Source: Actinomycetota bacterium | Lineage (GTDB): Bacteria; Actinomycetota; Geothermincolia; Geothermincolales; RBG-13-55-18 | DNA length: 43,432 nucleotides | NCBI GenBank assembly: GCA_028697145.1 | Contig: JAQVFR010000032.1 | Location: 1-43,432, forward strand | Direction of reading: 5' to 3' | Translations under genes and position numbers: made by a program | The notes under the pieces: generated by a model | Database searches by the model: none | Seen by the model: only the letters and a program-made list of their open reading frames with translations | Told to the model about the DNA's origin: nothing | Part shown: positions 6,950 through 30,358 of the stretch, piece after piece | How the letters are laid out: every line of letters starts with the position of its first letter | Position numbering within the stretch: the stretch's first letter is position 1

Positions 6950-7073
6950 GGGGTCAGGTCTTGTTTTTTGCATACTCCGGTATGTATCGGGTTATTGTAC
7001 ATACGCTCCTTTATGAGCAGGGATTACGTGAGAAACGACGGGATGCCGAAGTCAAAAATCAAAACCTGACCCC
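6950..7073 (+). repeat. RAYT-linked palindromic element, copy E1 (124 bp)
   Basis: Begins GGGGTCAGGTCTTGTTTTTT (A end) and closes with a degenerate complement ending CCTGACCCC (B end). It contains a small hairpin CATAC-TCCG-GTATG just inside the A end and a central stem GCTC/GAGC at 7005-7018. It starts 5 nt after the hdrA stop, with the A end next to the gene. The closest relative in the window is E2, of equal length and roughly 80% identical by eye. Confidence 0.9.
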
Positions 7074-10611: not shown

Positions 10612-10735
10612 GGGGTCAGGTCTTGTTTTTTGCATACCCCGGTATGTTTTTGGTTAATGTACATATGCTGCTTTATAAGCAGGGATTACATAAGTGATAA
10701 CGAAATGCCGAAGGCAAAAATCAAAACCTGACCCC
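10612..10735 (+). repeat. RAYT-linked palindromic element, copy E2 (124 bp)
   Basis: A end at 10612 (GGGGTCAGGTCTTGTTTTTT), small hairpin CATAC-CCCG-GTATG, central stem CTGCTT (10668-10673)/AAGCAG (10677-10682), and B end reading AAAACCTGACCCC to 10735. It lies 5 nt after the fdhA stop with the A end next to the gene. It is 227 nt upstream of the RAYT. Confidence 0.9.
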
Positions 10736-10852
10736 ACAACCCCGCCAGACCCCCACCATGGATAACCGAAAAGACGCGAGGCCAGGCAGGAGAAGCGCCT
10801 GACCACGGTAAGGTTGATCGCGATGTTCTGTTGCCAACACGCGGACTTCCGG

Positions 10853-10900
10853 ATAGAATAGTTATATTAATTAATAAAGTTATATAATTAGATATAGTCT
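10853..10900 (+). promoter_or_regulatory. AT-rich putative promoter region of the RAYT
   Basis: An AT-rich patch in GC-rich DNA holding ATAGAATAGTTA (10853-10864), the palindrome TATTAATTAATA (10865-10876) and several TATA-like hexamers, 60-110 nt before the RAYT start. The first 12-mer also occurs at 970-981. I cannot fix a single promoter. The rest of 10736-10962 shows nothing else. Confidence 0.35.
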
Positions 10901-10962
10901 TGGAACTGGAAAGGTGGCGGACGTAGGAATTCTCGGAACTTGGGTCGGGTTGGTGACAGATC

Positions 10963-11820
10963 ATGGCGAGACCACTGAGGATACAGTACGAGAATGCTCT
11001 TTACCACGTAACAGCGCGAGGAAATGAAAAGGCTAAGATTTACAGGGATGATGAAGATCGTTATGTCTTCATAGAGCACCTCGCGAGGGTTGTTGAGCAG
11101 TATACGTGGGTGCTTTATGCATACTGCCTCATGGACAACCATTACCACCTGCTGGTGAGAACCCCCAAGGCTAATCTGTCCAGGGGTATGCGTCAGTTGA
11201 ACGGCATTTACGCGCAGTATTTCAATGCTCGTCATGAAAGGGTGGGACACTTATTTCAGGGCAGATTCAAGGCAATCCTCATAAAGGATGAAGACCGCTT
11301 GCTGGTTGTGGCGCGCTACGTGGTCCTTAATCCCGTAAGGGCGGAGTTGGTCGCGGACCCCGAGGAGTGGAGGTGGTCTTCCTATCGAGGCACAGCCGGA
11401 CTTGGCGGGCAGCCAACATTTGTCGACACAGACCAACTGTTGTGTTCTTTCTCTGAAAACAGGGAATCGGCCATCGAGCAATACGCTGCCTTTGTTCTGG
11501 GAGGGATCGGCAAGGAATCGCCGCTTTCCGACGCCCGCGGCGGGATAATCGCAGGCGACGGGAGGGCCGTGGAGATATCTGTTTCGAGGTTGATGGGCGA
11601 GGCAAGCGACGAGGTTGCGAAAAGAGAGCGATTCGCAGACAGGCCAGGGCTGGAGGAGATATTCCGAGAAAACGATCGAGACATCGGTATATATATGGCG
11701 TTCTGCCGGTATGGATACAAACTGAGAGAGATAGGAGAATACCTGGGGCTGCATTATTCGGTTATAAGCCGGGTTGCTGCAAGGATGGGGTCAGGTCTTG
11801 TTTTCAGCTCGCTAAAATAG
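10963..11820 (+). CDS. REP-associated tyrosine transposase (RAYT, Y1/HUH family)
   Basis: A 285-residue single-strand DNA endonuclease/strand-transferase related to IS200/IS605 TnpA. The HUH motif is H60-x-H62 in CLMDNHYHLLV and the catalytic tyrosine is Y119 in ARYVVLNPVRAELV, the usual Y-x2-LNPVRA block. The N-terminal MARPLRIQYENALYHVTARGN is typical. The C-terminal about 50 residues (YKLREIGEYLGLHYSVISRVAARM) form a DnaA-like helix-turn-helix found in many RAYTs. Base composition is lower in GC than neighbouring genes. The last ten residues (GSGLVFSSLK) and stop are encoded by element E3, so the native tail seems replaced. Both flanks carry palindromic elements, the likely substrates. It looks intact. 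Confidence 0.93.
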   Translation: MARPLRIQYENALYHVTARGNEKAKIYRDDEDRYVFIEHLARVVEQYTWVLYAYCLMDNHYHLLVRTPKANLSRGMRQLNGIYAQYFNARHERVGHLFQGRFKAILIKDEDRLLVVARYVVLNPVRAELVADPEEWRWSSYRGTAGLGGQPTFVDTDQLLCSFSENRESAIEQYAAFVLGGIGKESPLSDARGGIIAGDGRAVEISVSRLMGEASDEVAKRERFADRPGLEEIFRENDRDIGIYMAFCRYGYKLREIGEYLGLHYSVISRVAARMGSGLVFSSLK

Positions 11821-11910
11821 AGCATCGCATCTATAGATGCTGCATATAAGCGAGCTTATGTAAAAGAACCCTCGAGATACTTGGGTATGCAAAAAACAAG
11901 ACCTGACCCC
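11787..11910 (-). repeat. RAYT-linked palindromic element, copy E3 (124 bp, overlaps RAYT 3' end)
   Basis: The left arm starts GGGGTCAGGTCTTGTTTT and diverges; the right arm is the conserved A end (complement of 11885-11910), so E3 is inverted relative to E2. Its first 34 nt are the final RAYT codons and stop. A central near-perfect hairpin (AGCTCGCT.. / AGCGAGCT..) is visible. TATAAT at 11915-11920 lies just outside the A end, before the DUF1538 gene. Confidence 0.88.
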
Positions 11911-11942: not shown

Positions 11943-12638
11943 TTGTCAGGTGGAATCGCGAAGATAACGCGCGAGGTGCTGCTCTCGGTGCTTCCGATCA
12001 TGCTGGTCGTGGTTATCCTCCAGTTCAGCCTGATAAAGATGCCCACGGCCATCCTGGCGCGTTTTCTCGCGGGGGCGGTGATGGTGACGGCGGGGCTGAT
12101 CCTCTTTCTCTTCGGGATGAAGATAGGGTTGCTGCCCCTGGGCGAGATGATCGGCGGTGAGATCACCAAGAGAGCGTCCATCGCCCTTATATTGACCATG
12201 GCGTTCGTGCTGGGCATGGCGATCACCATCGCCGAGCCGGACGTGCGCGTCCTCGCGCACCAGGTGGATACGGCCTCCGGAGGCGCGATCAGCAGGAGCG
12301 TCCTCGTCCTGGCCGTGGCGGTGGGCGTCGGGGTATTCCTCGCGCTGGCCCTGCTGCGGGTCATCATCGGCGTGCCGATCGCCTACCTTTTCGTGGCCGG
12401 TTACGGCATCGTGCTTATCATGTCCATCTTCGCGCCGCAGGCCTACTTCCCCGTGGCATTCGACGCGGGAGGAGTGACTACGGGCCCCATGACCGTGCCG
12501 TTCCTCATATCCTTCGGTATAGGCACCGTCGCCGTGCTGGGCGGGAAATCATCACTCGCTGACGGTTTCGGGCTGGTGGGCCTGGCGTCGATCGGGCCGA
12601 TAATCTCCGTCATGGTCCTGGGCATGATCGCGGGGTGA
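11943..12638 (+). CDS. DUF1538 membrane protein, first of a pair
   Basis: A 231-residue, very hydrophobic protein with about six or seven transmembrane segments. It shows the duplicated family features: ITIAEPDVRVLAHQV and FDAGGVTTGPMTVPF. DUF1538 proteins are inferred to be transporters or channels; the substrate is unknown. The TTG start follows AAAGGAGG at 11928-11935 with 7-nt spacing. The next gene, a second DUF1538, starts 4 nt after this stop, and a PII-type regulator follows. This is a recurrent arrangement suggesting a two-subunit transporter controlled by a PII protein. A TATAAT box at 11915-11920 sits between E3 and the gene. Confidence 0.88.
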   Translation: MSGGIAKITREVLLSVLPIMLVVVILQFSLIKMPTAILARFLAGAVMVTAGLILFLFGMKIGLLPLGEMIGGEITKRASIALILTMAFVLGMAITIAEPDVRVLAHQVDTASGGAISRSVLVLAVAVGVGVFLALALLRVIIGVPIAYLFVAGYGIVLIMSIFAPQAYFPVAFDAGGVTTGPMTVPFLISFGIGTVAVLGGKSSLADGFGLVGLASIGPIISVMVLGMIAG

Positions 12639-12642
12639 TGGT

Positions 12643-13362
12643 GTGAGCAACATAGTCCTGGTGGAGGGTTTCGGCAGCGTGGTGATGGAGGCGCTGCAGG
12701 CTTTTTCCCTACTCCTGGTGCTCCTTTTCGTTTTTCAGTTCACGTTCCTCCGCCTCTCCCGTACCGCCTTCCTCAAGCTGCTCCTGGGGCTGGGCATAGC
12801 CTTTGCGGGACTGGTGCTTTTTCTGCAGGGCGTGAAGGCGGGCTTCCTTCCCGCGGGCGATGAGATGGGGAAGGCCCTGGGGGACATGGACGCCTCCTGG
12901 GCGATAATACCCATAGGATTCATTCTCGGTTTCACCGCCATCATCGCCGAGCCCGCCGTGCGCATCCTGGGCTCCGAGGTGGAGGATGTCTCGAGCGGCT
13001 ACATAAAAAGCTCCGTCATCGTATACACGCTTTCCGTCGGGGTGGCGGCTTTCGTGGCCCTGGGAATGGCCAGGATGGTCTACGGCATACCGCTCTTCTA
13101 TCTCCTGGTGCCGGGATACCTCCTGGCATTGCTCCTTTTGCCCTTTTCCAGGCCCGATTTCACCTCCATCGCTTTCGACGCGGGGGGCGTGGCGACGGGA
13201 CCCATGACGGTAACCTTTATCCTGGCCTTGACGGTGGGAGCCGCCTCGACGGTCAAGGGGAGGGACCCGGTAATAGACGGCTTCGGCCTGATAGCCCTGG
13301 TAGCCCTGGCCCCCATATTGTTTGTCCTGGTCTTGGGCTTAATATATAGGTGGAAGGAGTAG
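12643..13362 (+). CDS. DUF1538 membrane protein, second of a pair
   Basis: A 239-residue paralogue of the preceding gene with the same marks (IIAEPAVRILGSEVEDVS; FDAGGVATGPMTVTF) and about seven membrane spans. The GTG start lies 4 nt after the first gene's stop, implying coupled translation. The two halves together could form one transport unit, since other genomes carry fused or paired DUF1538 domains. A short positively charged tail (YRWKE) ends the protein just before the PII gene. Confidence 0.88.
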   Translation: MSNIVLVEGFGSVVMEALQAFSLLLVLLFVFQFTFLRLSRTAFLKLLLGLGIAFAGLVLFLQGVKAGFLPAGDEMGKALGDMDASWAIIPIGFILGFTAIIAEPAVRILGSEVEDVSSGYIKSSVIVYTLSVGVAAFVALGMARMVYGIPLFYLLVPGYLLALLLLPFSRPDFTSIAFDAGGVATGPMTVTFILALTVGAASTVKGRDPVIDGFGLIALVALAPILFVLVLGLIYRWKE

Positions 13363-13368
13363 TGCCTT

Positions 13369-13710
13369 ATGGAGTGTCTGGAGAATTGCAACGACCTGAT
13401 CGTGACCATCGTGAAGAGGGGGCTCTCCGAGGAGATAATCGCGGGAGCGCGCAAGGCGGGCGCCGAGGGGGCCACGGTCTTCTACGGCCGCGGGACCGGG
13501 ATCCACGAAAAGAAGAAGCTGCTGGGTATCCCCATCGAGCCCGAGAAGGAGATCATCTTCATCGTCACCATGAGGGACAAGACCGACGAGGTGCTGGAGG
13601 CCATCGTGGAGGCGGGTGACTTGAACCGGCCTGGCCACGGCACGAGCTTCGTTCTGGAGCTGAAGAAGGTGGCGGGCATGGTGCATCTTCTTCGCGAGGC
13701 GATTGACTAG
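13369..13710 (+). CDS. PII-family (GlnB-like) regulator associated with DUF1538
   Basis: A 113-residue PII-like signalling protein with the ferredoxin-like core and terminal GHGTSFVLELKKVAGM. It lacks the classical PII uridylylation tyrosine segment and contains the variant T-loop region GRGTGIHEKKKLLGIPIEPEKE. It starts at an ATG 6 nt after the second DUF1538 stop, with AAGGAG about 10 nt upstream. Position suggests it gates the DUF1538 transporter in response to an adenine nucleotide or metabolite, as GlnK does for AmtB; that is an inference. The stop is 6 nt before E4. Confidence 0.85.
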   Translation: MECLENCNDLIVTIVKRGLSEEIIAGARKAGAEGATVFYGRGTGIHEKKKLLGIPIEPEKEIIFIVTMRDKTDEVLEAIVEAGDLNRPGHGTSFVLELKKVAGMVHLLREAID

Positions 13711-13716
13711 AGAGAC

Positions 13717-13840
13717 GGGGTCAGGTCTTGTTTTTTGCATGCCATTTTATGGTATAGCTTGTATATTTGCTGCATAAAGGCGGGCATAAGTCAAATAATC
13801 CCTAGGATACCCGAGTATGCAAAAAACAAGACCTGACCCC
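13717..13840. repeat. RAYT-linked palindromic element, copy E4 (124 bp)
   Basis: Both arms are near-perfect A-type ends (GGGGTCAGGTCTTGTTTTTT and its complement; about 24 of 26 outer bases match). It fits between two convergent genes with 6 nt on each side: the PII stop at 13710 and the apgM stop at 13847. It is the most symmetric copy. Confidence 0.9.
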
Positions 13841-17004: not shown

Positions 17005-17128
17005 GGGGCCAGGTCTTGATTTTTTGACGATAAGATCCGGCGATCAACCCATAATGCCTGGTTATAGGCGGGCATATGTGAAATAATGATTAACATACCG
17101 GGGTATGCAAAAAACAAGACCTGACCCC
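17005..17128 (-). repeat. RAYT-linked palindromic element, copy E5 (124 bp)
   Basis: The right arm is the perfect A end (complement begins GGGGTCAGGTCTTGTTTTTT, then the CATAC-CCCG-GTATG hairpin). The left arm is the degenerate B end (GGGGCCAGGTCTTGATTTTT). The A end lies 18 nt from the stop of the leftward metallo-hydrolase gene and 90 nt from the rightward MFS stop, so it again faces a gene 3' end. Confidence 0.88.
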
Positions 17129-22645: not shown

Positions 22646-22729
22646 GGGGTCAGGTCTTGTTTTTTGCATACCCTGGTATGTTACCAGTTGCAAGCAGGTA
22701 CTTTTCACACAAATACAAGACCTGACCCC
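22646..22729 (+). repeat. RAYT-linked palindromic element, copy E6 (84 bp, internally deleted)
   Basis: Has the intact A end and CATAC-CCTG-GTATG hairpin, then jumps to a short interior and the closing CAAGACCTGACCCC. It is 40 bp shorter than the other copies. It lies 7 nt after the CoA-transferase stop (A end toward it) and 19 nt from the stop of the convergent small gene. Confidence 0.85.
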
Positions 22730-30235: not shown

Positions 30236-30358
30236 GGGGTCAGGTCTTGTTTTTTGCATACTCCGGTATGTGAGACGTTTTACACATATGCCCGCTTATT
30301 ACCAGGCATTACAGGCTTGACTGCGACACCCTCGATGCAAAAAACAAGACCTGACCCC
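30236..30358 (+). repeat. RAYT-linked palindromic element, copy E7 (123 bp)
   Basis: Starts immediately after TAA 30233-30235 with the A end, then hairpin CATAC-TCCG-GTATG, a central TGCC/GGCA stem (30289-30308), and a right arm complementary to the first 24 bases. A perfect TATAAT lies 17 nt beyond its right end. Confidence 0.92.

Follow-up and report, generated by a model that had tools for sequence, protein, structure and literature searches.

A RAYT gene between matched inverted ends in an Actinomycetota contig: comparative traces of probable movement between species and an apparently settled locus within the family

The 43,432-nt contig JAQVFR010000032.1 of an Actinomycetota bacterium (GenBank assembly GCA_028697145.1), hereafter the window, contains a gene for a REP-associated tyrosine transposase (RAYT; REP, repetitive extragenic palindrome) that lies between two inverted ends. 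Comparative analysis showed matched ends, gene-less miniature copies of these ends (minis) cognate to the RAYT, empty sites in relatives, an allele swap, and DNA similarity that in most pairs runs through the unit and breaks off at its ends. The preferred reading, given a probability of roughly 0.68, is that the RAYT gene has moved end to end with its terminal inverted repeats (TIRs) as a unit of the kind named TIRtron, that it also mobilises the minis, and that it has settled in the window's family. By this mechanism, a Y1 HUH-type RAYT (TIRYT) would be carried between inverted ends, which its own enzyme would most likely recognise as single-stranded DNA. The enzyme would also mobilise the minis, and the whole unit would have entered, left, or been swapped at loci over evolutionary time. 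In the window's family, the unit would have come to rest at a site flanked by an fdh gene and apgM, and would move rarely, if at all. Movement of the unit is partly supported: it is the better reading across species, while within the family the unit looks settled.

The RAYT-bearing unit was 1299 bp long (10612-11910), and both of its ends were inverted and faced outward. A sequence-only reading of the window had placed near-identical inverted ends around this segment, and comparison of the two ends bore this out: the first 28 nt from 10612 and those from 11910 (reverse complement) were identical (GGGGTCAGGTCTTGTTTTTTGCATACCC). A small hairpin (CATACC-CC-GGTATG) began within the left end and continued past 10639. 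The ends started with GGGGTCAG, which matched the repeat motif GGGGWSAS; the tetranucleotide GT[AG]G was not present at the foot of the flanking hairpins, the ends starting with GGGGTCAGGTCTTG.

When up to two mismatches were allowed, the 14-nt core GGGGTCAGGTCTTG matched 14 times in the window, where shuffles predicted 0.46 matches and none of 100 shuffles reached the observed count. Genome-wide it matched 172 times, compared with 14 times for the reversed control. Each of the window's cores paired with an inverted partner, which gave seven minis of 123–124 bp, in one case 84 bp (Table 1). The two ends are real, and they form the outer halves of minis A and B, both complete elements of about 124 bp. 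The sequence-only reading had overlooked this, along with mini C, the four other minis, and the position of the RAYT stop codon within mini B. All minis of the window folded as a single long hairpin with a stability far above that of shuffles (z −4.5 to −8.5).

Scanning species genomes yielded 79 loci, 72 of which had enough flanking sequence to be tested. Both ends were present in 61 of these 72 relatives, which came from many phyla, with a median unit length of 924 bp (interquartile range 916–928). At positions 12–26, the left and right ends matched at 11.05 of 15 positions within units, whereas shuffling the partners gave 6.81 ± 0.26 (7.84 at most). If two minis had landed by chance on either side of the RAYT, the bracket would be meaningless; in the window's own genome (G000) and in G012 each end is indeed half of a complete mini, and minis are common in the genome. 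Chance bracketing was nevertheless rejected as highly improbable, because the units of G002 and G010 have single matched ends with no inner mini end, the bracket type follows the RAYT, and the 61 bracketed relatives keep a near-constant distance between the ends.

RAYT pairs that were 75–92% identical and came from different species had unrelated neighbours in nearly all cases. DNA alignment of nine such pairs showed that, in most of them, homology ran from end to end and the sequences outside were unrelated [for example L159/L167 (949 bp against 949 bp), L145/L165, and L140/L187]. Homology bounded by the ends at unrelated loci is the trace that a moving unit with defined borders would leave.

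The RAYT most similar to that of the window (82% identical) was found in Candidatus Solincola daggyaiensis (class Candidatus Geothermincolia). In six genomes of the family (G012, G010, G013, G014, G006, and G002), a RAYT unit lay between fdh and the convergent apgM. The gap between the two genes was only 18 bp in G001, which belongs to the window's genus, and 13 bp in G009, which belongs to the genus of G012; neither gap held a unit or a mini. These empty junctions may never have been filled or may have been precisely cleared, and either fits. The same junction contained an unrelated open reading frame (ORF) in G005 and 298 bp with one degenerate end in G003.

In G002, which belongs to the window's genus, fdh and apgM were 86% and 83% identical to those of the window, while the RAYT was just 59% identical and had different ends; the fdh/apgM spot was thus taken by another RAYT, whose two ends matched each other. 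The RAYT tree joined the window with G012 (support 100/99) and rejected the grouping of the window with G002 (approximately unbiased test, p-AU 0.001). The grouping of the window with G012 was rejected by the apgM tree (p-AU 0.001) and the fdh tree (p-AU 0.0001); the genus grouping was fixed in advance and the window/G012 grouping was picked from RAYT identity, so the apgM and fdh p-values are less strict.

The left and right ends of each family unit were of one type, and the type varied between genomes. The minis of G000 were mostly TTTTTTGCAT, the type of its RAYT ends, and those of G013 were AATCGTGATACC, again the type of its RAYT ends; the minis of G010 were AAATTTGATACC and AATTTTGATACC, which are the left and right ends of its own unit. 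In G002, the minis were mainly TCATTTTGCAT, with a minority of the G000 type. The genomes without a window-type RAYT (G001, G009, and G005) had 0–2 such ends each. This genome-by-genome match between minis and the local RAYT end type suggests that the window RAYT probably mobilises the minis.

The RAYT ORF matched Pfam Y1_Tnp (3e-14) and NCBIfam REP_Tyr_transpos (83.9 bits, just over the cut-off of 80). Residues H60, H62, and Y119 were invariant in an alignment of 22 homologues; the C-terminal part had only a weak match to HTH_38 (E 0.022), below the cut-off. The predicted structure had a mean pLDDT of 82, with lower confidence for the C-terminal helix bundle, and a fold search with it returned 4er8 (a RAYT bound to a REP hairpin) as the best match, followed by the TnpA proteins of IS608 and ISDra2. 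An alignment-profile search against solved structures gave no sequence match. The dN/dS of the RAYT between G000 and G012 was about 0.12, which indicates that the gene has been maintained in working form. In the preferred reading, the window RAYT would cut and join its own ends, on which the cognate pairing bears only indirectly, and the unit would move by single-strand transposition.

RAYTs are the textbook example of bacterial transposases regarded as domesticated: they spread small repeats but, by the usual account, do not relocate the gene that encodes them. They were described by Bertels and co-workers as single-copy and vertically inherited (PMC8049555). In the main rival explanation for the window, the RAYT would be domesticated and immobile, its ends would be recognised only for the spread of minis, and deletion or homologous allele exchange via the conserved fdh and apgM would account both for the missing unit (G001 and G009) and for the replaced RAYT of G002. 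This explanation agrees with a locus and an orientation that six family genomes share, the single close copy in the genome, and a G000/G012 divergence that fits vertical descent. However, exchange via fdh and apgM fails to explain the relatives at unrelated loci whose homology stops at the ends, and the near-constant end-to-end length across phyla; moreover, simple recombination between minis would leave one mini, and the G001 and G009 junctions hold none. It was considered unlikely, and movement of the end-bounded unit was preferred.

Several results weigh against that movement. Within the window's family, the unit was always at one locus, in one orientation, and in one close copy per genome. 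The dS of the G000/G012 RAYT pair was 0.94, near the 1.04 of apgM, which fits vertical descent; therefore, this pair may be vertical and G002 may be the replaced one. No genome was found in which near-identical units occupied two loci. A base-precise empty site of the unit was not seen, the relatives being too far apart, and fdh and apgM were found adjacent in part of the family only, so the junction may ancestrally have been empty or filled. In the pair L177/L195 the left end was missing from L177, and the homology of L165/L168 ended short of the right end. In addition, G004 and G011 carried minis of the family's end types while a RAYT of the type was not found there, which may reflect loss or incomplete assembly.

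The sequence-only reading had suggested that the enzyme could move its own gene, to be checked by a search for the unit elsewhere or for an empty site, and to be refuted if all relatives had a single-copy RAYT whose locus and neighbours never varied. Self-movement was supported between species by the empty junctions, the G002 swap, and the unrelated loci, but not by a recent copy at a second site. Empty junctions (G001 and G009) and relatives at unrelated loci were found, but a base-precise empty site was not. Wherever the family had the unit, its locus and neighbours were constant and each genome held one close copy, which comes near to the refuting observation; G001 and G009 had no unit.

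An identical pair of RAYT units in G073 was considered as a recent self-copy and rejected, as it was a 3042-bp tandem duplication. Plasmid and phage matches to the RAYT were distant only; one plasmid record, 42% identical, spanned most of the RAYT protein.

RAYT-like genes flanked by GGGGWSAS TIRs were reported by Di Nocera et al. (2013; PMC3733652), who named them TIRtrons and TIRYTs. The bracketed arrangement in the window is real but already published, and the window unit, whose ends fit, therefore belongs to this known kind. Both have a RAYT-like gene between GGGGWSAS inverted repeats, no GTAG REPs, repeats that may overlap the 3′ end of the gene, and a family of related repeats in the genome. 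The window unit differs in that its edges are complete 124-bp minis and in that its host is a Geothermincolia-type actinomycete relative. To the TIRtron literature, the present analysis adds empty sites, an allele swap, and homology confined to the unit, as comparative evidence of present or past movement as a unit.

The window RAYT shared the Y---NP motif, a long protein, and the lack of GTAG REPs with TnpA-Y1 subclass 2.1 (Quentin et al., 2018; PMC6006769), the subclass of TIRtrons, to which it would be assigned by these shared features. Its C-terminal helices may correspond to the extra helix-turn-helix (HTH)-like part of that subclass. In difference to that subclass as described, matched ends bounded most of the relatives examined here. 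RAYT group 1 of Bertels et al. 2017 reportedly corresponds to this subclass. REPtrons (classical RAYTs with REPs or REPINs) likewise have a RAYT matched to its repeat type, a gene flanked by inverted repeats, and palindromic minis, but the window unit is without a GTAG guide at the hairpin foot and has a long linear terminal repeat with a small hairpin further in. With the IS200/IS605 elements (IS608 and ISDra2), it shared the HUH Y1 nuclease fold and the catalytic residues. IS200/IS605 elements have no terminal inverted repeats and carry different subterminal hairpins at their two ends, whereas the window unit has matched 28-nt inverted ends.

A broader proposal, tentative and rated somewhat below an even chance, is that this RAYT group is not domesticated, and that its members are the transposases of living single-strand transposons of about 0.92 kb with inverted ends, which occur in many phyla, spawn minis, and enter and leave sites without a trace. 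The borders of this candidate mobile unit are now known with base precision; it has relatives in different phyla, cognate minis, and close relatives whose junction is empty, which makes self-movement of this RAYT group directly testable.

Table 1. Positions of the RAYT unit, its ends and gene, and the minis in the window
Feature	Position	Strand	Remarks
TIR-bounded RAYT unit (TIRtron), 1299 bp	10612..11910	+	28-nt identical inverted ends; 1296-bp unit in G012 at the same fdh/apgM locus
Left outward-facing end, 28 nt matching the right end	10612..10639	+	
Right outward-facing end	11883..11910	-	
RAYT/TIRYT gene, 285 aa	10963..11820	+	HUH motif H60-Y61-H62, catalytic Tyr119 (Y---NP), C-terminal helices resembling HTH
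Mini A, complete palindromic element, 124 bp, left edge of the unit	10612..10735	.	One long hairpin, z −5.7
Mini B, complete element, 124 bp, right edge of the unit	11787..11910	.	Contains the RAYT stop codon 11818-11820
Mini C, 124 bp, adjoins the apgM 3′ end; 75% identical to mini B, direct orientation	13717..13840	.	
Mini	6950..7073	.	Missing at the corresponding junction in relatives
Mini	17005..17128	.	
Short mini, 84 bp	22646..22729	.	
Mini, immediately past a stop codon	30236..30358	.	Missing at the same junction in five relatives

No target-site duplication was visible in the flanks of 41 minis; immediately beyond the end, these flanks showed only a weak preference for A/T. Base-precise empty sites of the minis at 6950-7073 and 30236-30358 were not placed, as the flanks of the relatives were too diverged, and two further comparisons gave no clean synteny. 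Many minis started 0–16 nt past the stop codon of a long ORF, and they may therefore act on mRNA ends.

Between minis B and C, the window had a DUF1538-DUF1538-PII cassette (11943-13710), for which no substantial DNA match was found in five family genomes; in the relatives, apgM followed directly after the unit.

The window's own genome carried two further RAYT paralogues, L002 and L003 (contigs C4 and C41), and each of them lay between matched inverted ends of a separate type (GGGGTCAGCCCTTAACATT and GGGGTCAAGCCCCGCC). The C4 paralogue was at the same locus in G000, G001, and G002, and in G002 it was inverted relative to its neighbours (L281 and L277 versus L279), as if an end-bounded unit had flipped. 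RAYT copies with stop codons and still intact matched ends were also observed (L036 and L043); among the stop-bearing RAYTs, the G006 copy was clearly broken and the G013 copy had one stop near the end. Behind one RAYT of G005 (L070), the end motif GGGGTCAGATCTTC occurred four times in direct orientation in a stretch of about 240 bp. In G010, G006, and G014 (L064, L072, and L066), the fdh frame entered the element and stopped at a TGA inside GGGGTCAGGTCTTGA; therefore, the element supplies the fdh stop codon.
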